DNA of 64,000 nt from contig JAENZX010000001.1 in assembly GCA_016841045.1 (NCBI GenBank), positions 143,541 through 207,540 on the forward strand, given 5' to 3'. This document shows, one piece after another, positions 35,915 to 52,340 of the stretch. Made by a program: the position numbers and the translations under genes. The DNA comes from Thermincola carboxydiphila (lineage in GTDB: Bacteria; Bacillota; Thermincolia; Thermincolales; UBA2595). Position 1 is the first letter of the stretch; the number at the start of each line of letters is the position of its first letter. Under the pieces are notes generated by a model that saw nothing but the letters and a program-made list of their open reading frames with translations, searched no databases and was not told where the DNA came from.

Positions 35915-36084
35915 TTACTAAAATCTGATAACAGCCATTATAGCCTGTAAGTAAGGCAAAAATACTCTTTTCAGCATCCGTTTAGAGATGCTTATTTTTC
36001 TAAATTAAAAGAAATACTAACAAAAAGGCTTTTCACCCTTATTAAATGTTAAATTACATTTCCCATTTTACAGGAGGTTCAATT

Positions 36085-36771
36085 ATGACACTCTGTCAAC
36101 TTTCCGAAGACATGAAGAATGATGTTCAGGCAAAGCTTGAAAATATCCGACAGCAGATTGACTCTATCCTTACAATGATGCGTGGTGGAGAAAAGTGCCT
36201 GCTTTGTGAAATAACTTCTGTGGTAGATTTGACTAATGAGTTGGAAGTATTAGCTTCATTCTATCATTTTCAATCGTCGCTGCTCCCCCATATAGAAGGC
36301 TTGGACGAAATCATAAAGGCTCTGGCCAAACTATCACATAACAATCACGGAGCACTGGTAGCAGTAGAAAGAAACGACAGTCTAGATTCATATGTCACGG
36401 CCTGCAATATTACCGGTGTACCAATCAATGCCGTGGTTTCGGCACCTCTTTTGGAGACAATTTTTTATCCGGGTAACCCTTTGCATGACGGAGCAGTGAT
36501 AGTCAGAAAAAATCAAATTGTATCTGCAGGCTGTTTACTTCCACTCTCTAATCAGAAATTTAATAAAGAGGGGAAAAAAATAGGGACTCGCCACCGCGCC
36601 GCTTTAGGTCTGAGTGAACTTACTGACGCGTTAGTGTTAACCGTCTCAGAAGAGACAGGGCAGGTATCCTTTGTCTTAACCGGTGTCATTCATCCAATCG
36701 AGGTTACATTATGCGCTCATGCAAATTCCCCCAATAAGGTAGAACCTCAAGTAACACTTACTGAAATATAA
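36085..36771 (+). CDS. Diadenylate cyclase, CdaS-like (sporulation type)
   Basis: 228 residues from the ATG at 36085 behind CAGGAGG; an ATG at 36046 has none. An N-terminal helical part (about 1-80) precedes the DAC domain, whose catalytic motifs are DGA (135-137) and RHR (169-171). The layout of a helical leader without membrane helices and a DAC domain near 80-215 fits CdaS/YojJ rather than membrane CdaA or DNA-binding DisA. It makes c-di-AMP from two ATP. In bacilli CdaS acts in germinating or sporulating cells; the same here is inference. Confidence 0.88.
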   Translation: MTLCQLSEDMKNDVQAKLENIRQQIDSILTMMRGGEKCLLCEITSVVDLTNELEVLASFYHFQSSLLPHIEGLDEIIKALAKLSHNNHGALVAVERNDSLDSYVTACNITGVPINAVVSAPLLETIFYPGNPLHDGAVIVRKNQIVSAGCLLPLSNQKFNKEGKKIGTRHRAALGLSELTDALVLTVSEETGQVSFVLTGVIHPIEVTLCAHANSPNKVEPQVTLTEI

Positions 36772-41214: not shown

Positions 41215-41556
41215 TTATTCGTTTTCAATCTGTTTGAGTAAATCAATAGCTTCAATTAAGTGATTATTGAAAATAGCTTTAGCCACATCCAATAATTCAA
41301 AAATTAAAGGATCCTTTACAGTGTACGTCACTTTATTCCCTTCTTTTGTACCAACAACAATATTTTTCGCCCTTAAAACCGATAGCTGCTGCGATACGGC
41401 AGAGTTCTCTATTTCAAAGATAGTGTTCAGTTCATTTACGTTTTTGTCTCCTTCACGCAGCGATTCCAGAATTTTTACCCGTAAAGGATGAGCAAGTGCC
41501 TTAAAAAACTCGGCTTTAAATCTTTGCAGTTCAGTGCTAATTGAATTCACCTCCAC
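41215..41556 (-). CDS. ArsR-family repressor
   Basis: 113 residues. The winged helix has the ArsR form (FFKALAHPLRVKILESLREG; SAVSQQLSVLRAKNIV; GNKVTYTVKD). It contains no cysteine at all, so thiol-based metal or sulfide sensing, as in ArsR, CadC or BigR, is unlikely. It starts 5 bases after the small-subunit gene and closes the membrane-complex operon. A perfect palindrome at the operon promoter (49111-49140) is its likely site. Confidence 0.88.
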   Translation of the reverse strand: MEVNSISTELQRFKAEFFKALAHPLRVKILESLREGDKNVNELNTIFEIENSAVSQQLSVLRAKNIVVGTKEGNKVTYTVKDPLIFELLDVAKAIFNNHLIEAIDLLKQIENE

Positions 41557-41561
41557 TTTGA

Positions 41562-42347
41562 TTAAATGGAATTCCTGGGGGGTATCCTTTCAATAGCCTT
41601 TAACAGCCCGTAAATTATAGCCTGTGGCCGGGGAGGACAACCAGGTATATATATATCAACCGGCAAAATTTTATCTACCCCTCCGATGGCAGCGTAGCTG
41701 CCCTGAAAAATCCCTCCACTACAGGCACAAGCCCCCATAGCCACCACCAGCTTTGGATCCGGGGTAGCTGTAAAAGTTTTTTTAAGTGCGGTTTCCAGAT
41801 GTTCTGTGACTGAACCGGTAACAAGCAGTAAATCTGCATGTCTTGGAGATGCTACAAAGTCAATGCCAAGTCTTTGTATATCATATACCGGATTTGTCAG
41901 GGCGTTTATTTCGAAGTCACAGCCATTACAGGAACCACTATCAACATGGCGAATATGCAGCGAACGCCTTAGTATATTTTCTGTTTTGCCCGCCAGTTTT
42001 CCTTTAAGCACATCTAAATCTTCATTAATTTCGTTAACCGCTACAGTCAACTTTTCTTTTTCCCTTACAGCTAATTCAAAGTCCATTGTATGTGATATCG
42101 AGTGCTCAGGGCAGTGTCTTTGACAAACTCCACAAAATAAACATTTATTATATTCGATAATTAATTTCCCGTCTTCTTTTTTTATTGCTTTAGTCGGACA
42201 AATTGTAGCACATTGCCCACACAGGCTGCAAGTTTGCAGATTAATAACAATTCTTCCTAAGAAGGCAGCCGGAGTATCTTCTTGTTCATAAGGATATTTT
42301 GTTGTCTTCTTCCCTGTTTTAATACTTTTTTTAAATAGGCTAAACAT
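41562..42347 (-). CDS. Ferredoxin-fused NuoB/HyfI-like small subunit
   Basis: 261 residues. The N-terminal part has two 4Fe-4S motifs (CSLCGQCATICP; CLFCGVCQRHCP), the job of HyfH/NuoI. After a helical linker comes the NuoB/hydrogenase small-subunit domain with all ligands of the proximal cluster: SCNGCDFE, GACACSGG and PGCPPRP. It would pass electrons to or from the large subunit on the cytoplasmic side. Confidence 0.9.
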   Translation of the reverse strand: MFSLFKKSIKTGKKTTKYPYEQEDTPAAFLGRIVINLQTCSLCGQCATICPTKAIKKEDGKLIIEYNKCLFCGVCQRHCPEHSISHTMDFELAVREKEKLTVAVNEINEDLDVLKGKLAGKTENILRRSLHIRHVDSGSCNGCDFEINALTNPVYDIQRLGIDFVASPRHADLLLVTGSVTEHLETALKKTFTATPDPKLVVAMGACACSGGIFQGSYAAIGGVDKILPVDIYIPGCPPRPQAIIYGLLKAIERIPPRNSI

Positions 42348-42355
42348 TTTTTCAC

Positions 42356-43960
42356 CTACCTACCCAAGCAGGAATAGAAAAGCTCAAAACTCTTATTAAT
42401 AAAAGGAAAATCCGGAACCATATTTCCTGGAACTGCTGCTTGAACGGCGGGCCAGTTAGTATAGGAGGCAGATCTTACCCTGTATCTGAATATGGTATTG
42501 CCTTGACCCGCCATAACCCAGTGAATGTTTTCTCCCCTGGGCGATTCGGTGTATCCCAAAGCATAACTTTGTGGTTTAATTGGCCCAAGGGCCGAGTTTA
42601 ATTTTCCTCCGGGGATTGCCGCCAAGGCTTGTGAAATTATGCCAAAAGACTCTTCAATTTCATCAATGCGAACTAACAATCTGGACTTTACATCTCCTGC
42701 AGTATAGCTGGGCACTTGGAACTCTGTATTACTATATGCCGCATAAGGATGATTCTTTCGGACATCCCTCCTGCTTCCCGAAGCCCTCCCCCCAGGCCCG
42801 ACTACATTCATTTTTAAAGCTATTTCAGGCGGAAGTACCCCGGTACCAATAAGACGCTCATTAAAAGAGTCGTTGTTAACTAGAATTTCTTTAAGTTCAC
42901 GAAAATCCCCCGCGACCGCAGTCAATGTTTCTCGTATCTGCATTGAGATTTCGTTATCGAGGTCCAACTGTACACCCCCGGGTACATTTATTCCCCGTAA
43001 GTATCGATTACCAGCAATGCGTTCATTAAGCTGCATCATTGTTTCTTTCAACCTGGAACCCTGACTGATTCCAAAGGTAAAACCAGTTCCGGCGCAAATA
43101 TTTCCTACGTCCCCTAAATGATTATAAAGCCTTTCCAGTTCAAGTATTATCGTCCTGATATACCTGGCCCTGTCAGGGATTTCAGTGCCCGCAAGTTTTT
43201 CAACAGCCTGACAATAAGAGGTAGAGTGAGAAAAGGAACATACCCCGCAAATACGCTCAACCAGGGGAAGTGCCTGATGAAAATTCATTTCTTCTGCCAG
43301 TTTTTCAATACCTCTGTGGGTATAAAAAAGCTTTGCCTCAAGATTTATAATATACTCTCCCTGAACACTGAATCTAAAATGTCCGGGTTCGATAATTCCT
43401 GCATGTATTGGACCCACCGGAACCTGAAATATGCCTTCACCCTTAACCTGCTTAAAAGGCAGTTCCTTATCTGTTCTAGGCAATTTCATTCCCTTGGGAA
43501 TGTCCTTTCTTAATGGGTGCACCTCTTTGGACCAAAAGTGTCGAACAAGGCGTTTGGGGTCAGGATGGCCGATGGGGTGTACACCCAGCATATCCTTGAC
43601 CTCCCTCTCATACCAATGAGCTGCGTGTATTGCCGGTGTTACGGATGGAAATGCGGGATTGTCTCGTTCTACACGTGTTGAAATTGTAATAAATAAATCT
43701 AAGTCATTTGATGCGAAAACATAGTATAACCCATAACATTCATCAATTTCCCGTTCATCGGTTCCGATCATATCCACCAGAGGAGCCTTCAGTGTCTGTT
43801 GTGTATAAAGGCAGGCGGAAACTAGGAGTTCTTTGGGAACAGTAACGATAATCTGGTTATCCATCAAAAACTCAAAATCAATCTGTTCACCAAACTTATT
43901 TCTGTACAAGGTCAAAAGCTTATTTCTATACAATTCCAATGAATTAATTACTTCTCTCAT
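42356..43960 (-). CDS. HyfG-like (NuoCD) catalytic subunit with incomplete nickel site
   Basis: 534 residues. A NuoC-like domain (about 1-165; HAAHWYEREVKDMLGVHP, PLRKD) is fused to the NuoD/hydrogenase large-subunit domain. The first nickel motif is intact: Cys238 and Cys241 in RICGVCSFSH. The second, usually DPCxxC, reads ELFYSC: Phe528 stands where the first cysteine should be and only Cys531 remains. The chain stops three residues later. So three of four nickel ligands are left. It may be an energy-converting complex that no longer works as a plain hydrogenase. Confidence 0.9.
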   Translation of the reverse strand: MREVINSLELYRNKLLTLYRNKFGEQIDFEFLMDNQIIVTVPKELLVSACLYTQQTLKAPLVDMIGTDEREIDECYGLYYVFASNDLDLFITISTRVERDNPAFPSVTPAIHAAHWYEREVKDMLGVHPIGHPDPKRLVRHFWSKEVHPLRKDIPKGMKLPRTDKELPFKQVKGEGIFQVPVGPIHAGIIEPGHFRFSVQGEYIINLEAKLFYTHRGIEKLAEEMNFHQALPLVERICGVCSFSHSTSYCQAVEKLAGTEIPDRARYIRTIILELERLYNHLGDVGNICAGTGFTFGISQGSRLKETMMQLNERIAGNRYLRGINVPGGVQLDLDNEISMQIRETLTAVAGDFRELKEILVNNDSFNERLIGTGVLPPEIALKMNVVGPGGRASGSRRDVRKNHPYAAYSNTEFQVPSYTAGDVKSRLLVRIDEIEESFGIISQALAAIPGGKLNSALGPIKPQSYALGYTESPRGENIHWVMAGQGNTIFRYRVRSASYTNWPAVQAAVPGNMVPDFPFINKSFELFYSCLGR

Positions 43961-43964
43961 ACGC

Positions 43965-45434
43965 CTATCCCCTTAACAACAATACTATCTGATCCAGAAC
44001 TTCCCGAAAATACGGCGGCACATATAATCCCATCGTTAAAATAAAAGCCAGGGGAACAGTCATGGCAGCTAAATTAGTTACGCTGGTTTCCCCGCTCTGG
44101 ATTTTGAGAGGTTTTTCACCAAAAGCCATCTTGGCAGCATGATAGAACATCCCTGTAAATATTAGTGCTAATAAACCTAAAAACAGCATACCCGCAATAA
44201 TCTTACCCTGAGAGAAACCTGCATTAGCGATAATAAACTCACTGGTGAAAATACTAAAAGGAGGCATTCCCGTAATTGCCAGAACCCCAATCATCAGCAT
44301 AGTTCCAGTGTATGGAATTGCTTCTAAAACACCTTTTATACGGGCCATTTTTTTCGTTTTATATTTTTGTGTAATATTACCTGCCACCATAAACATTAAC
44401 GACTTAGCCATAGCATGGTTAAATAAGTGCAGCAGAGCACCAAAGAGCCCCATTTCTCCACCTAAACCCACAGCAAAGGTTACAATCCCGATATGCTCTA
44501 CACTGGAATAAGCCAGCATACGTTTAAAATCATATTGTAAAATTATAAAGGGCACTGCTATCGCTATGGATATCAAGCCAAATATCATCAACAAGTTTGA
44601 GGAAAATCCGTTACCAACACTTTTATTTGCAATAATATGAAAACGCAAAATGGCATACAAGGTGGTATTCAGCAGGACTCCCGATAAAAGTGCACTTACC
44701 GGCGAGGGGGCCTGACTGTGGGCATCAGGTAACCATGTATGCATTGGGGCTAAACCGGCTTTGGTTCCAAAACCGATTAAGATAAAAATAAATGAGAGCT
44801 TAATTAATCGTGGGTTTAATTTCCCTGCAATTTCCTGTAAAGCAACCCAGTTTAAAGCATTACTTGACTGTCCTAACACACTCACAGATGAGTAATAGGC
44901 AAGAATTATTCCGAAAAGGGCAAAAGTAATACCCACCGTACAAATAATTACGTATTTCCATGCGGCTTCCAAAGAGGCTTCTTTATTATAGAACCCTACC
45001 AATAAAGCTGATGCTAGGGTCGTAGCTTCAATAGCCACCCACATTACACCGAGGTTGTTAACTATAGTGACTAAAAGCATAGTCGAAGTAAATAAATGCA
45101 GCAAAAAATAATACCATTTCATCTTACCTGCTTCTATACTTCCGTGCATCACTTCAACTTTCATGTAGTTTAGAGAATAAAGTGTTGAAATAAAACTGAT
45201 TATGGAAACAATCACGATAATGAAAGCACTAAGGATATCGATGTAAAAAATTCCGCTGGCGAAGCTGACCGGTCCATTGACAAAAACACTGACAGAGAGG
45301 TACAGACCTGTTACCATTGCAGCTAAAGAACCTAACAAGTTGATAGCTGAATGTAGTCTTTTATTAATAAATAGAAATAAACTCGCCGTAATTATGGGTA
45401 TTATAAGCAGAATTGCTGGCAGCATTATGTTCAT
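43965..45434 (-). CDS. HyfF-like proton-pumping subunit
   Basis: 489 residues, about 14 transmembrane helices of the NuoL/M/N antiporter family. FGTKAGLAPMHTWLPDAHSQAPSPVSALLSG holds the conserved lysine and histidines of the channel (written here in part). YSSVEHIG and LFNHAMAKSLMFMVAG also fit. It overlaps the HyfE-like gene by 4 bases. Confidence 0.92.
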   Translation of the reverse strand: MNIMLPAILLIIPIITASLFLFINKRLHSAINLLGSLAAMVTGLYLSVSVFVNGPVSFASGIFYIDILSAFIIVIVSIISFISTLYSLNYMKVEVMHGSIEAGKMKWYYFLLHLFTSTMLLVTIVNNLGVMWVAIEATTLASALLVGFYNKEASLEAAWKYVIICTVGITFALFGIILAYYSSVSVLGQSSNALNWVALQEIAGKLNPRLIKLSFIFILIGFGTKAGLAPMHTWLPDAHSQAPSPVSALLSGVLLNTTLYAILRFHIIANKSVGNGFSSNLLMIFGLISIAIAVPFIILQYDFKRMLAYSSVEHIGIVTFAVGLGGEMGLFGALLHLFNHAMAKSLMFMVAGNITQKYKTKKMARIKGVLEAIPYTGTMLMIGVLAITGMPPFSIFTSEFIIANAGFSQGKIIAGMLFLGLLALIFTGMFYHAAKMAFGEKPLKIQSGETSVTNLAAMTVPLAFILTMGLYVPPYFREVLDQIVLLLRG

Positions 45435-46093
45435 CCCTTCAAGTTATTTAATTTTGCAGTATTTATTGTGTCAAAAGTCTTGTTAATTCGATAAGCTAAG
45501 ATACCCATAATAATAACACCTACTAACAGGTCAAAAAACATACCCAGTTCCACCAAAAGCGGCATTCCGTAAGTTGTGGAAACAGTCATTAAATACAGCC
45601 CATTCTCCATTGTAATAATACCCACTACCTGCATAAGTGCTTTTTTCCGGGAAATCATTATAAACAAGCCAAGCAATACCAGACTGATTGCAATAGGTAA
45701 ACTATTCCTGGCCAAAGGGTTCTGTGATAACAAATCCGGTTCAGTTACATAGAAAGAAATAATCATAAGTATTATGGCAATAACAATATTAAGCCGGGTA
45801 CTGAAAAAAGATTCTACTCTATTTATGACTGATATCTTCCGTAATGTATAGAGCAGCACTGCTGGCACTAGAAAGCCTTTAACAAACAGGGTGATTGCTG
45901 CTGCAAAGTAAATATGTTTAATATTACTAACAAAAGCTACTAAGCCGGTAATACCTGACAACAGTATCGCCTGCAAGGATAGTAATATAAAAACATTACG
46001 AAGCCTGCGGCTGCATATAACAGAAAAGGTTATCGCCAAAGTAACAAAAGATAGCACATCTATTAGTTGGGAATACATATTACCGGTTGACAT
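45431..46093 (-). CDS. HyfE-like membrane subunit
   Basis: 220 residues, six or seven transmembrane helices. The HyfE/NuoK-like pattern is seen in VVGIITMENGLYL and in the glutamates in buried helices. Start and stop overlap or abut both neighbours. Confidence 0.87.
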   Translation of the reverse strand: MSTGNMYSQLIDVLSFVTLAITFSVICSRRLRNVFILLSLQAILLSGITGLVAFVSNIKHIYFAAAITLFVKGFLVPAVLLYTLRKISVINRVESFFSTRLNIVIAIILMIISFYVTEPDLLSQNPLARNSLPIAISLVLLGLFIMISRKKALMQVVGIITMENGLYLMTVSTTYGMPLLVELGMFFDLLVGVIIMGILAYRINKTFDTINTAKLNNLKG

Positions 46094-46097
46094 CAGA

Positions 46098-47039
46098 TCA
46101 CCCCTTAAGCAATAACTGCACCACGACCGCCAATCCTGCCAAAAAGAACGCTGTCATCAGCAGTCCCGGTACACGGAATATTCTCAGCTTATTGTTGGCT
46201 ATCTCTACCGTTGCAGTAATCAAAGCCAGGATAAATATTTTTACAATATAAATTAAACTGCCTGATAATAACCCAATATAATCGATTGACGGCAAGCCTC
46301 CCCAGGGTAAAAATACATTACCAAGCAGTGTCAAAATCAGCATTTGTTTTAGCATAGCGCTGTACTGCATTAGTGCAAGCGGCTTTCCTGAATACTCCAG
46401 CAGCATTCCTTCATGTACCATGGTGAGTTCTAAGTGTGTATCCGGATTGTCAATGGGTATCCTGCCTGTTTCTGCCAGAGACACTATAAACATCGCTATC
46501 ATGGCCAGGATATGTGAGGGGTTCATAAGACCAAGGCCTATCGAGGCCGTTGCTCCCGCTATCACAGAAAGATCAGTGGAATTAACCTTAAGAGCGATAG
46601 AAAATAACGCAAGAAACATTACAGGTTCCACCATGGCAGAGATAAACATTTCGCGGCTGCTGCCCATACCGCCAAAGGCACTTCCTGTATCTAAACCTGC
46701 GAGTGCCATATAGAAGCGGGCAAAAGCGAAGAGATAACACAGGAGAATGATATCGCCCGCAAAACTTATTGTCATATCCGGTGAAACTGAAGGAATGAGC
46801 AAAGCAGCGGCAGCAATAGATGCAAAGGTTAAGTATGGTGCAGACCAATACAACCAGGAGGCGTTATCAGAAATTACACTGTCCTTTTTTAAATATTTGA
46901 TTAAATTGTAATATGGTTGAAGCAGCCCCGGACCTTCCCGGTTCTGCCAAAAAGCTTTAGTTTTTCTGATAGTGCCCTCAACCAGAGGTGCTAACAATAA
47001 TAAAAGAATTAAGTGCAGTACTATATAAACGAATCCCAT
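46098..47039 (-). CDS. HyfC-like (NuoH) membrane subunit
   Basis: 313 residues with about eight transmembrane helices. The NuoH/HyfC blocks are clear: EGTIRKTKAFWQNREGPGLLQPYYNLIK, FGGMGSSREMFISAMVEPV, AETGRIPIDNPDTHLELTM (each seen in parts). This subunit joins the redox arm to the antiporter-like arm. Confidence 0.92.
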   Translation of the reverse strand: MGFVYIVLHLILLLLLAPLVEGTIRKTKAFWQNREGPGLLQPYYNLIKYLKKDSVISDNASWLYWSAPYLTFASIAAAALLIPSVSPDMTISFAGDIILLCYLFAFARFYMALAGLDTGSAFGGMGSSREMFISAMVEPVMFLALFSIALKVNSTDLSVIAGATASIGLGLMNPSHILAMIAMFIVSLAETGRIPIDNPDTHLELTMVHEGMLLEYSGKPLALMQYSAMLKQMLILTLLGNVFLPWGGLPSIDYIGLLSGSLIYIVKIFILALITATVEIANNKLRIFRVPGLLMTAFFLAGLAVVVQLLLKG

Positions 47040-47051
47040 CTTTACACCCCT

Positions 47052-49079
47052 TTATTTTGCGAAAATCAATAGTATTACCAAAGTAACAAAAATATAAGAT
47101 AAATAGGTGTGGATGCTGCCTGACTGGATTTTACGGACTTGGTTTGAACTCCGTAAAAACAAATCCATTAAAGGTTTGTACAGATAAGTTTCAAAACCGG
47201 GTTTGATGTTGGATTTAAATTTTATGATGCCGCCAAAATATGGAGCAACTATAAAACTGTTTTCCTTAACTCTGTGGGGCATAAGAATTGTTTTAAATAC
47301 TACTTCAAAGGGGTGGGAGAAACCAGTGGAGGTATACTCCATTTCCGGTGATAACGTCTCACCGCATGTCCATGTTTCACTGATTCTGGTTTTCGTTTTA
47401 CCTCCCAAAACTCTTGCCAGTATTAAAGCAGCGAAAATCAAAATAACCAAGAATCCCATAACCGCCAGAGGGGTAATCCCCCCAAGTCCTGTCCTGGCCC
47501 CTGTCATGAATATATCGGTCAAACCCCTTTGAGTAGACATCGAATATCCGGTAATTTTAAATGTTACAGGAGATAACACCTTGAACCCAAGGTACGGCAG
47601 CACCCCTAAAACCAAGCAAAAACAAGCGGATATCCCCATACCTGCCAACATGGACGCGGGAACTTCTTTAGCTTCTGCCGCCTGTTGGCTCCGCGGCACT
47701 GCCAGAAAAGTCAAGCCAAAAGCTTTTACAAAGGCTGCTGCAACCAAAGCACCGCTAAAAGCTAACACTGCCGCAACCAGGAATGCGACCAGTTTTAACG
47801 AAGTTAAAGGGACGCTAATACCCAAAACCAGTAAACTTTGTAAAAGCAGCCATTCACTAATAAAACCATTGAATGGCGGCAGAGCTGATATTGACATGGC
47901 CCCGATTAAGAAGAACAATGCGGTCCAAGGCATTCTTTTAATCAGCCCCCCCATCAAATCAATGTTTTTAGTGTGAGTGGCATATAATACGGCCCCTGCA
48001 CCCATGAATAATAAATTTTTAAATATGGAATGGTTTAATAAGTGAAACATTCCCGCTGTTAAAGCAATAGCCGCGTATTCCCCGTAACCATATCTTTTAA
48101 GAATGATGGTAATCCCCAGGCTCGCCAGAATAATTCCGATATTCTCAACACTACTGTATGCTAACAACTTTTTAAGGTCCCTTTCGACTAAAGCATAGAC
48201 AATTCCCACAAAGGCAGTAAAAGTTCCAATTAGCAATATAGTAATTCCCCACCAGGTATAGGATACAGCCAGAAAATCAAACAGGACTCTGATCAATCCG
48301 TAGATAGCGGTTTTAATCATAACCCCGGACATAAGGGCCGAAACATGGCTTGGTGCAACAGGGTGGGCTTTTGGTAACCATATATGAAGAGGCATTATAC
48401 CGGCTTTTGTGCCAAAACCAATCAAAGAAAAGATAAAAATAACATTCTGTACGTTTTTGGCCAAATTAGGTCCAACTGACTGGAAGTCGGAAAAGTTTAA
48501 TGATCCTGTATGCCGGTAAAGAATAAAAAACAGCACAAAAATAAAAACAGTCCCCAGGTGAGTCATGACTATGTATATAAAGCCTGCCCTTCTGACCCGC
48601 TCTTCCCGGTGATTGGTAATGACCAAAAAGTAGGATACAACAGACATTATCTCCCACACCAGTAAAAAGCCAAAAACATTATCAACAGTGACGACCAAAT
48701 ACATCGCCAAAACAAACAAATTGAAGACAGCTCCTAAAAAAGCTGCCTTTTTTGATTGGTATTCTTTTAAATATCCCAAAGAATAGATTGATACACTCAA
48801 CACAGAAAGAGAAATTACCAGCAGAAAAAAAGCTGATATGCTGTCTACCAGTATATTTAGAGAAGCCCAGGGAGTAACTTTAAAAAGGCTGATTGCCAAA
48901 TTATCGCCTTCCCTGAGAACAATTACCGCCAAAGCCAGCATAAATAAGGATCCGGCAAAAGATGCAATATGCGCAATAAACGTGCTTACCTTGAAATTCC
49001 GGCTTAATAAGCAGCTTAAAAGCCCACCTGTAAAAATGGTAAGAATTGAAGCATAAAATAGATTTTCTGAAATTATCAC
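47052..49079 (-). CDS. HyfB-like (NuoL) proton-pumping subunit
   Basis: I start at the GTG at 49079. An open frame to 49175 would run through the promoter, and an ATG at 49115 lies inside the operator. The 675-residue protein is NuoL-like: IGFGTKAGIMPLHIWLPKAH, SSVENIGIIL, MFHLLNHSIFKNLLFMGAG and WTCGETLSPEMEYTSTGFSHP near the C-terminus, the last typical of the HyfB branch. It is first in the operon. HyfA and HyfD counterparts are missing, so the complex has two antiporter-like subunits plus HyfC/E. Confidence 0.88.
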   Translation of the reverse strand: MIISENLFYASILTIFTGGLLSCLLSRNFKVSTFIAHIASFAGSLFMLALAVIVLREGDNLAISLFKVTPWASLNILVDSISAFFLLVISLSVLSVSIYSLGYLKEYQSKKAAFLGAVFNLFVLAMYLVVTVDNVFGFLLVWEIMSVVSYFLVITNHREERVRRAGFIYIVMTHLGTVFIFVLFFILYRHTGSLNFSDFQSVGPNLAKNVQNVIFIFSLIGFGTKAGIMPLHIWLPKAHPVAPSHVSALMSGVMIKTAIYGLIRVLFDFLAVSYTWWGITILLIGTFTAFVGIVYALVERDLKKLLAYSSVENIGIILASLGITIILKRYGYGEYAAIALTAGMFHLLNHSIFKNLLFMGAGAVLYATHTKNIDLMGGLIKRMPWTALFFLIGAMSISALPPFNGFISEWLLLQSLLVLGISVPLTSLKLVAFLVAAVLAFSGALVAAAFVKAFGLTFLAVPRSQQAAEAKEVPASMLAGMGISACFCLVLGVLPYLGFKVLSPVTFKITGYSMSTQRGLTDIFMTGARTGLGGITPLAVMGFLVILIFAALILARVLGGKTKTRISETWTCGETLSPEMEYTSTGFSHPFEVVFKTILMPHRVKENSFIVAPYFGGIIKFKSNIKPGFETYLYKPLMDLFLRSSNQVRKIQSGSIHTYLSYIFVTLVILLIFAK

Positions 49080-49110
49080 TGTGCCGCACCGCCATCTATC
49101 TTTTGTTTTA

Positions 49111-49140
49111 TTCATATATTCAAAAACTTGAATATATGAA
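49111..49140. promoter_or_regulatory. Operator palindrome, likely ArsR site
   Basis: TTCATATATTCAA-AAAC-TTGAATATATGAA on the plus strand, 13-base perfect arms. It lies immediately downstream of the -10 box, over the likely start of transcription. The TTCAA/TTGAA core is typical of ArsR-type operators. Confidence 0.75.
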
Positions 49141-49151
49141 ACTACAAAGAT

Positions 49152-49182
49152 AATCATAACATGACTATTCGGCAAATTTCAA
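49152..49182 (-). promoter_or_regulatory. Sigma-A promoter of the hyf-like operon
   Basis: Minus strand: TTGAAA (-35), 18-base spacer, TATGAT (-10). The operator palindrome follows. Confidence 0.7.
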
Positions 49183-49529: not shown

Positions 49530-52340
49530 TTACGGCGTGTACCCAATAGAGGTATCAATTGTAATAGTCTTAGATGCCCCATCCCAACCAACTCCAACGT
49601 TAAAGGCCTGCATCACATCACGAAGTTTAAAATAATTGTTGCCACCAATCAAATATGCCGTCATTTTGACCTCTTTGCCGTCAATATAAATAATCGAGGT
49701 CGTAACGACTGCGGTTTTTGTTTTGCCATCTCCCCTGGTCATTTCACCGCCGCTAACAGTATAGGGCTTGTTGCTGAGCATATTAATGGCTTTCTTTTGG
49801 CCATCCCAGGTTACTTCAAATTGTTTTACAGTGCCATTTAAGACAAAGGCTAGATCCCTCAGCTTAAAATAGTTGTTGCCGTTAATAGTATATGCGTCAA
49901 AGTCTTGGGCAGCACTGTTGACCAAGACTTTAGAGGAAGTCGGAGCCGCAATAGTGGCAGACCGGGCAAGGGGCAAGCCTCTCAAAACAGGATAGGCCAT
50001 TCCTTGATCAAGTTGCCAGGTCTTATTAAAGTCAAAAGCGGGATAGGAGGCCTTTTGTTTTAGCTGTTGCGGGTTTAAGTATTTAGCCTTGAGAGTTGAA
50101 TCCTTAATAGTGCCGGCAGCCTTTACGGTTTTGATATGATAAAAACTGTTTAAGACCGAAGCTTCATCCAAATCACCGACAATAGCACCGACAATAGCAC
50201 CGGCAGTGTTTCCTTTGGTTGTTCCAACATTGATAGTATTATTTATTGTGCCACCAAGACCAGCTATCCCTACAATGCCACCAACACTTCTGCCCCTGGC
50301 TGTTCCGGCATTGATAGAATTAACTACTTTGCTACCACCAGTAAGACTCCCTACTATGCCCCCAACAGTATCACCGACTATATTACCCGAAAAATAGCAG
50401 CTGGAAGTATTAGACTTAAACGCATAACCAGTTCCAACAATTCCGCCTGAGTGACCGTTTGAAATAACTGTCGCTGAACTGAAACATTTATTTATAACAG
50501 CAGAGTTGGTGCCGGCAATACCACCTGCCATAGGTACAGTACCGCCCGCGAAAGAGGCAGAAACCTTACCCGTAAAATATGAATTTAAGATTCGGCCTTG
50601 AAGCTCATTACGCCCGGCTATACCCCCTGCTGTTGCTCCCGAATTTTCGTCACTATTAACAACCTGGATATCACCGTTCACCACTCCAAGATTTTTAATC
50701 ACACCATAATTGACGCCGAAAAGCCCGCCTATGCCTAACACCCGGTCATTGATACGAAGGTTTAAGATAGTATAACCATTTCCATCAAAAGTTCCGGCAA
50801 ATATGTCTTCATTGACATCAGATTTACTGCCTTTGCCTATGGGAACCCATCCATTACCGTTGTTATAAAACTCCCCGCCGAGTGCAAAATCAGCTGCACT
50901 AAATGTAATATTGTTGGTCATAACAAAATTGGCATTAGGATAGTATCGGACATTGTTCAGTTGTTTTTTTGTACTGACTTTAAAGGGGTTAGTTATGGTT
51001 CCGTTACCACCGGCAAAATCTGCAGCAGTGTCGGCAGCAGGGGATGGTAAAGCCCTCAGAATCGGAAAGGGATATTTATAGTCCGGGGACATAGTCCAAA
51101 CTCCGTTAAAGTCAAACCCCTTGTAGCTTGCCTGTTGCTGCATTTGGGCACCGGTTAAGGCTGTTACCTCATCTGCCTGAACTTCTATTGAAGTTTTCAG
51201 ATAGTAATTGTTTATTAATATGCAGCCTGGACTGCCGTATACAATCCCTTTGGAAGTTTCGGAAAATCTGCCGTAAACCGAACCAACATTATAGCAGTTG
51301 GAAACAGACCCGTTCTCACTGAAGAAGCCTGCAATTCCTCCGGCATAATATGATGACAAAACGGCGCCTGCATTGTAAGAGTCACTTACATTACCATCAT
51401 CTGCTATGATACCCCCCGCATGGGTTGTTGCCTTGATTGCACCGATATTATAGCTTTGAATGACTGACCCCCTTGTGGCAATGCCTGAGGCAAAAGCTCT
51501 TTCGCCATGGTAGAAGTTTCTGGAAACAGCAGTTATGGCACCTGTGTTATAGCTGTATCCTATTCTTGCATCATCTTTACTTCCTATGCCGCTGAAAGAA
51601 TAATAATCTCCTGCTATACCTGCGGCTCTGACATATGCTGCACTGCCGGTGATGCGCCCGGTATTGTTAGAGTACGTAATTTTACTTCCATTATCAACAG
51701 TCATTTCCCCTACAATACCGCCAAGAATTAAATTGGTATTCTTGCCAGATAATTTAACATTAAAATTTCCGATATTATTACTATTGGCAGTAAGGCTCTC
51801 CATGGCCTGCATGGCCGCTATACCACCGACATACATCGAAGAATCTGAGCCGTCTATATTAATGCTAACGTTACCTGCATTGTAGCAATTTTCGATGGTT
51901 CCGTAATTGACCGCAGAAATAAAGCCGGCATAGATTAAAACTCCTGTCGACGCTATATTTCCTGAAATTTTTGAGTCCTCAATGCCGAGATTTTTTATGG
52001 TACCTTGATTAATGCTAAAAAGTCCCACTTTTGCACTGGACGTCAGGTTAAAGTTAAGATTACGAATGACATGACCGTTGCCATCAAAGACTCCGGTAAA
52101 ACCATTCTTTTTAAAGCCGCTGGATTGATTTGAGCCTATAGGTTCCCAGTCACCGGAAATGGTTATGTCATTCATGAGCAAATAATTTCCGCTCAGATTC
52201 TGGGAAATAGCCGCTAAATCTGCCTGAGTGTATATGGGAATTGGGCTTTCAGCAGACGCTGCATTTGGCGCTGCTTGAAAAAGCAAAATCATAGTTAGTA
52301 CTAATAGAAACAATTTACTGACATAGCAGGACTTAGCCAT
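49530..52340 (-). CDS. Secreted GLUG-repeat protein with copper-amine-oxidase-N-like C-terminus
   Basis: 936 residues, GAGGAG ribosome site. A signal peptide (cleavage near APNAASAES) is followed by a long series of GLUG-type units (VGGIAG, GGIVGSLTGG, NNTINVGTTKGNTAGAIVG) in two blocks. Each block begins with a FDGNGHVIRNL or FDGNGYTILNL strand. The last 120 residues are two copies of the YxINGNNYFKLRDL module seen in copper-amine-oxidase-N/stalk domains, thought to bind the cell wall. It is likely an adhesive surface protein. It is transcribed alone, downstream of a structured leader. Confidence 0.88.
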   Translation of the reverse strand: MAKSCYVSKLFLLVLTMILLFQAAPNAASAESPIPIYTQADLAAISQNLSGNYLLMNDITISGDWEPIGSNQSSGFKKNGFTGVFDGNGHVIRNLNFNLTSSAKVGLFSINQGTIKNLGIEDSKISGNIASTGVLIYAGFISAVNYGTIENCYNAGNVSINIDGSDSSMYVGGIAAMQAMESLTANSNNIGNFNVKLSGKNTNLILGGIVGEMTVDNGSKITYSNNTGRITGSAAYVRAAGIAGDYYSFSGIGSKDDARIGYSYNTGAITAVSRNFYHGERAFASGIATRGSVIQSYNIGAIKATTHAGGIIADDGNVSDSYNAGAVLSSYYAGGIAGFFSENGSVSNCYNVGSVYGRFSETSKGIVYGSPGCILINNYYLKTSIEVQADEVTALTGAQMQQQASYKGFDFNGVWTMSPDYKYPFPILRALPSPAADTAADFAGGNGTITNPFKVSTKKQLNNVRYYPNANFVMTNNITFSAADFALGGEFYNNGNGWVPIGKGSKSDVNEDIFAGTFDGNGYTILNLRINDRVLGIGGLFGVNYGVIKNLGVVNGDIQVVNSDENSGATAGGIAGRNELQGRILNSYFTGKVSASFAGGTVPMAGGIAGTNSAVINKCFSSATVISNGHSGGIVGTGYAFKSNTSSCYFSGNIVGDTVGGIVGSLTGGSKVVNSINAGTARGRSVGGIVGIAGLGGTINNTINVGTTKGNTAGAIVGAIVGDLDEASVLNSFYHIKTVKAAGTIKDSTLKAKYLNPQQLKQKASYPAFDFNKTWQLDQGMAYPVLRGLPLARSATIAAPTSSKVLVNSAAQDFDAYTINGNNYFKLRDLAFVLNGTVKQFEVTWDGQKKAINMLSNKPYTVSGGEMTRGDGKTKTAVVTTSIIYIDGKEVKMTAYLIGGNNYFKLRDVMQAFNVGVGWDGASKTITIDTSIGYTP

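Follow-up and report, generated by a model that had tools for sequence, protein, structure and literature searches.

The analyses presented here indicate that the hydrogenase-like operon of the window (the whole stretch of 64,000 nucleotides of Thermincola carboxydiphila DNA that was analysed) encodes a six-subunit complex that is very likely not a hydrogenase. It is probably a hydrogenase-derived ion pump, belonging to the Ehr and (probably) 4f branch, that lacks a [NiFe] centre, turns over no H2, is likely fed by ferredoxin and passes electrons to an acceptor other than protons. Considering that a metal ligand of the large subunit has been lost and that hyp maturation genes were not found in the genome, ion pumping is probably driven by a reaction other than the making or burning of hydrogen. 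The preliminary description had suggested that a different partner replaced H2; judged from sequence this is probably so, and the absence of HypA, HypD, HypE and HypF strengthens the suggestion.

The genes occupy the minus strand from 49175 to 41215 as an uninterrupted run of six subunit genes followed by an ArsR-family regulator; a plus-strand reading of 42356–43960 is full of stops and was rejected. The features are as follows.

47052..49175, minus strand: HyfB-like antiporter-type pumping subunit, GFGTKAG lysine kept (the annotated start may lie downstream of the TTG)
46098..47039, minus strand: HyfC/NuoH-like membrane anchor, 313 aa, EtGRiPiDNPdTH loop kept
45431..46093, minus strand: HyfE-like membrane subunit, 220 aa
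43965..45434, minus strand: HyfF-like antiporter-type pumping subunit, 489 aa, GFGTKAG lysine kept
42356..43960, minus strand: large (catalytic-type) subunit of the NuoC–NuoD/HycE type, 534 aa, with C238, C241, F528, C531 and G533
43238..43255, minus strand: intact N-terminal motif RICGVC, residues 236–241 of the large subunit
42356..42400, minus strand: altered C-terminal motif INKSFELFYSCLGR and stop, codons 521–535 (INKSFELCYxCxDR in four-Cys relatives)
41562..42347, minus strand: two-cluster ferredoxin domain (HyfH/HycF-like) fused to a NuoB-like small subunit (HyfI-like)
41215..41556, minus strand: ArsR/SmtB-family regulator, directly after the operon

All six subunits are intact, in agreement with the earlier view that the complex has two pumping subunits and is complete for ion pumping. 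The iron–sulfur ligands of the small subunit, also claimed earlier, are present as 12 cluster cysteines, among them two ferredoxin motifs of the form CxxCxxCxxxC, the first from C40 and the second from C69, and the proximal [4Fe-4S] ligands C140, C143, C207 and C237 in CxxC-type spacing; the proximal motif, GSCNGCD, is of the hydrogenase type. The retention of these cysteines and of both pump lysines favours a working ion pump. Genes for an NADH module (NuoEFG) do not occur within the run 41215–49175, and across 69 other loci no conserved extra electron-input enzyme adjoins the operon beyond the core subunits, while relatives of the ArsR/SmtB regulator lie near the operon in 8 of the 69. Just upstream, at 49530–52340 (minus strand), the window encodes a large exported protein with many GLUG-like repeats (assigned by eye); similar repeat proteins occur elsewhere in the genome, at the end of L144 and in L145 on contig C40.

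In particular, we have established that the large subunit carries three of the four metal-ligand cysteines by which a group 4 hydrogenase is recognized. Codons TGC and TGT specify C238 and C241, TTC specifies F528, TGC specifies C531 and GGT specifies residue 533; the alignment with E. coli HycE (7z0s_E, E 6e-112) places SLDPCYSCTDR over SFELFYSCLGR, so that Phe528 occupies the place of the first C-terminal cysteine. Codons and alignment thus uphold the original reading of an intact Cys238/241 pair, Phe528 for Cys and a retained Cys531. The residue lost is at the position of a terminal Ni ligand, which is selenocysteine in NiFeSe enzymes. The alteration of the site goes further than first described: D533G accompanies C528F, and the C-terminal DPCxxC is replaced by ELFYSC, with EL in place of DP throughout the branch. 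The protein terminates right after this motif, without a C-terminal extension, and the site residues Glu191 and Arg475 are still present. An AlphaFold2 model (mean pLDDT 87.9, pTM 0.91) has HycE (7z0s_E) as its top PDB match (TM 0.93, 38% identity); since residues 184–192 and 530–534 are poorly predicted, we make no claim on the geometry of the site.

Relatives were collected by a protein search of 61 genomes, a scan of a species-genome collection and a motif search of 398 genomes of the phylum, which gave about 100 usable large subunits. Two main types prevail, four-Cys proteins (RICGxC ... NKSFELCY[AS]CxDR) and 0-Cys proteins of the described Ehr type (RISGD ... NKSFNLSY[AS]GNDL). They have in common the signatures HAGIIEPGHFRF and PDFPLINKSF and the same operon make-up, and the family with the HAGIIEPGHFRF and INKSF signatures forms a single clade against DPC-type hydrogenases with 100/100 support, which confirms the kinship to Ehr complexes recognized in the preliminary description. 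The sequences closest to the window large subunit are of the four-Cys type (50–54% identity), and the same-family relatives G004 and G007 carry INKSFELCYSCFDR. Phe528 is found in none of 45 four-Cys relatives, all of which retain Cys528, and is likewise missing from the 24 further genomes of the phylum that yielded a match to INKS[FY]EL. At position 533, all 100 other sequences, whether four-Cys, 0-Cys or outgroup, carry D or E. Among the 79 positions invariant in the 45 four-Cys proteins, the window protein departs at four (A391G, L520F, C528F and D533G), three of which are within its last 15 residues, against a median of 0 among family members. Since the departures are few and focused on the metal site, the large subunit is constrained in general and altered at the site.

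Mixed ligand states are rare, comprising the window protein (Cys, Cys, Phe, Cys), L043 and L135. Apart from the 0-Cys proteins, which have Ser528, Cys528 is otherwise missing only in the 2-Cys relative L043:4406–5827 of Desulfosporosinus sp. UBA8487 (Ser, Cys, Ser, Cys; R475Q). In the latter, both terminal Ni-ligand positions are Ser, the second cysteines are retained and two near-site serines have changed too; it is nested within the four-Cys proteins with good support, and HypD is present in its genome. L135 (genome G326) is very divergent, with Cys, Asp, Cys, Cys, the motif RVCGSD and several altered conserved site residues.

The search for hyp genes advised in the preliminary description was made, as for NiFe-type genes, by profile search alone, with profiles for HypA, HypD, HypE and HypF (HypB and HypC were not profiled on their own). 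The window's genome, an assembly of 4.16 Mb in 75 contigs with a completeness rating of 100%, gave no match above the family cut-offs for any of these four, and HypD is present in each of nine further genomes from this family or order. In G004, where genes of the hyp stretches were named by eye and hypD, hypE and hypF by profile match, hypF-hypC-hypD-hypE are flanked by an aminotransferase gene on one side and by a small gene adjoining cobU on the other, and hypA-hypB come after a cytochrome b gene that belongs to an operon for a periplasmic hydrogenase-like enzyme. Both neighbourhoods are unbroken in the window's genome (contigs C2 and C18), with other genes in place of hyp: a reverse transcriptase gene, a gene of no recognized kind and a GmrSD gene at the hypFCDE site, and an MBOAT gene and a gene weakly similar to NonGDSL lipases at the hypAB site. 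Since both sites are continuous within contigs, the absence of hyp there has a cause other than a contig end, and an assembly gap was rejected as its cause at these two sites known from Thermincola; a translocated copy may reside in an assembly gap elsewhere. The occupants of the hypFCDE site (G000:C2, L185:12515–16108) resemble a small defence-type insertion, the GmrSD gene being of a restriction type.

A group-1-type hydrogenase that appears intact, all four ligands included, is encoded in the same genome close to a maturation protease gene (G000:C40, L144:4659–7942). It would be expected to be inert if Hyp proteins are lacking; either it is a relic after recent loss of hyp, or hyp genes lie in the unassembled part. 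On contig C18 (L146:8751–10094, minus strand) there is, additionally, a periplasmic group-1-type operon with a TAT small subunit, a large subunit and a cytochrome b, in which the large subunit is without the N-terminal ligand pair (QRTNGTD) and ends at RSF just before the expected DPCxxC. The corresponding motif is QRCSG[MI]D in its relatives L179:4754–6106, L180:4542–5897 and L181:4826–6178. Conservation of the operon in four genomes suggests that a second hydrogenase-like complex deprived of ligands is being maintained.

Considering how Phe528 arose, the preliminary description had spoken of an intermediate state, and a true evolutionary intermediate between four-Cys proteins and 0-Cys Ehr would be compatible with the weak backbone of the large-subunit tree (support for the window placement 52/54 and 47/75) and with an AU test that does not reject grouping of the window protein with 0-Cys Ehr (p 0.23). 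A second 0-Cys origin (L069/L075) appeared in the quick tree and was unsupported in the careful one, and the small-subunit tree, being too short, resolved nothing. In contrast, a best-score comparison for each subunit gives the highest scores against four-Cys loci for all six (569 versus 473 bits for the large subunit and 553 versus 431 for HyfF, with a negligible margin of 278 versus 276 for the small subunit), and Ehr proteins combine Ser528 with a retained Asp533, whereas the window protein has Phe528 and Gly533. We therefore regard an intermediate as improbable; since every subunit matches four-Cys relatives best, what was taken for an intermediate looks like a derived loss, and the cysteine loss is probably a separate event, for which the large-subunit tree alone is no proof. 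A still smaller chance is given to a [NiFe] site assembled with three cysteines and Phe528 in a (possibly slow) hydrogenase. The three remaining ligands, Glu191, Arg475 and the hydrogenase-type proximal motif would suit such an enzyme, and the intact-ligand hydrogenase and protease gene on C40 hint that maturation could exist; yet the terminal Ni ligand and Asp533 are both lost and the four Hyp proteins were not found.

A sequencing or assembly error at codon 528, which would make the complex an ordinary four-Cys member, is conceivable in that TTC and TGC are one base apart. The reading frame is intact, a second invariant residue adjoining the site has changed and the Hyp genes are missing independently; two separate changes beside the same site make a lone error unlikely, and we give this explanation very little weight. 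Decay of the operon towards a pseudogene, to which four changed invariant positions, where relatives have a median of 0, and the other ligand-deprived hydrogenase-like protein of the genome might point, is just as hard to accept, given six uninterrupted genes, the complete set of cluster cysteines and pump lysines, and departures that are concentrated at the metal site and not scattered.

The preferred reading, of a derived pump without a [NiFe] site, may extend beyond the window. Two sets of genomes, 35 and 56, were searched for HypD, and 26 and 26 of these were searched with PF00374 for large subunits of the NiFe type. Among genomes with a family protein, 38 have HypD together with another hydrogenase, and none has HypD without one, so that all 38 HypD-positive genomes carry another hydrogenase. 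Ten have neither, with an intact four-Cys form as the sole NiFe-type protein (G130, G360, G407, G399, G408, G409, G410, G413, G414 and G423); G130 is a complete single-contig chromosome, G407 is Sulfoacidibacillus thermotolerans and several of the ten are MAGs. Three lack HypD and have another hydrogenase (the window's genome, G400 and G401). The association of HypD with other hydrogenases gives a Fisher p of 2e-8, a value uncorrected for kinship, and many of the Hyp-less genomes compared are MAGs. HypE and HypF are also missing in G130 and G360. Hyp genes thus track other hydrogenases and not the four-Cys family protein, and, since intact four-Cys relatives also occur in HypD-less genomes, loss of the cysteine may be of less consequence than it looks. 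The four-Cys branch (probably HydDB group 4f) may thus work without a [NiFe] site. As strict conservation of the four cysteines holds for most relatives, those in Hyp-less hosts included, they must serve some role; that the whole four-Cys SFEL branch, whose members are annotated as hydrogenases, is Hyp-independent and non-[NiFe], its cysteine quartet holding another cofactor or supporting dithiol chemistry in a ferredoxin-driven pump, is an idea to which we give slightly less than an even chance. On this Hyp-independent reading, the window protein demonstrates that loss of a member of the quartet is possible. A literature search on Ehr and HypD found no open-access paper.

Described Ehr complexes (PMC6349859; PMC10284858) resemble the window complex in six-subunit make-up, in HAGIIEPGHFRF and INKSF and in an incomplete [NiFe] ligand set, and the window operon has the Ehr-type components, namely large and small subunits, a NuoH-like anchor and antiporter-like subunits. 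They differ in that their ligands are absent altogether (RISGD ... NKSFNLSYxG) with Asp533 kept, whereas the window protein keeps three cysteines and has lost Asp533. Four-Cys EhrL proteins, such as Desru_3264 of Desulfotomaculum ruminis (PMC3569383; likened by description, the sequence not being aligned), have INKSFELCYxCxDR and the same operon make-up, and differ in the two residues, Cys528 and Asp533, that are replaced in the window; the D. ruminis protein was proposed as a possible true hydrogenase (PMC3569383). The link of this branch, and of the window protein, to HydDB group 4f comes from the literature (PMC10284858) and is probably correct. Group 4f is labelled ‘putative formate-coupled’ in HydDB, the classifier of which was trained to exclude Ehr (PMC5037454); 4f sequences were dropped after checks in a survey of Clostridium (PMC9431212), and comammox Ehr is reported to be phylogenetically close to 4f (PMC10284858).

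By sequence and fold, HycE of E. coli hydrogenase-3 (formate hydrogenlyase) is the best solved structure for the window protein, from which it differs in its DPCYSCTDR motif, C-terminal extension, formate dehydrogenase partner and Hyp-dependent maturation. The MBS sulfane sulfur reductase of Pyrococcus furiosus, a ferredoxin-driven respiratory pump in which two ligands are left and are dispensable (PMC7684303), belongs to the same superfamily and has likewise lost part of its [NiFe] ligands. MbsL has two cysteines and the MBS proximal cluster three cysteine ligands, whereas the window complex has three cysteines, a hydrogenase-type proximal motif and no Mrp-type subunit set. Since the MBS proximal cluster is coordinated differently, its chemistry cannot be carried over directly to the window complex; a mechanism of the MBS type, with catalysis at a three-Cys proximal cluster, was rejected, the window motif being intact with four ligands. 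Respiratory complex I (NuoCD/NuoB) has fold, chamber and pump subunits in common with the window complex and differs in its NADH module NuoEFG, missing from the window operon, and in its cysteine-free NuoD, as opposed to the three cysteines here; a separate complex I NuoD is encoded in the window's genome (G000:C3). The M. tuberculosis Rv0082–Rv0087 genes, described as a putative [NiFe]-hydrogenase adjoining the regulator gene rv0081 (PMC6901956), may be a similar case, likened by description only.

We suggest that reduced ferredoxin is probably the donor, its electrons entering at the fused ferredoxin domain; they would cross the small-subunit [4Fe-4S] clusters and may exit to a small non-proton acceptor in the large-subunit chamber, at the former Ni site, a chamber that houses [NiFe] in HycE and the quinone headgroup in complex I. 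A quinone is our first guess at this acceptor and a tentative one. The redox reaction would then power the two antiporter-like subunits for ion pumping. As to the order of events, disappearance of the Hyp genes may have relaxed selection on vestigial ligands, after which Cys528 and Asp533 could have changed.

Finally, in surveys of genomes the presence of both CxxC motifs serves to identify group 4 enzymes as hydrogenases and to infer a metabolism of H2. If intact-looking four-Cys members indeed occur in hosts unable to build [NiFe], many such predictions would be wrong, and a widespread respiratory pump family would have a substrate other than the presumed H2. The window's genome, with other genes at its expected hyp sites and one ligand gone, is a natural experiment in the passage from hydrogenases to complex-I-like pumps.

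Elsewhere in the window, 36046–36771 (plus strand) encodes a diadenylate cyclase with a CdaS-type N-terminal domain (PF10372 and PF02457), outside the classic Bacillus setting.
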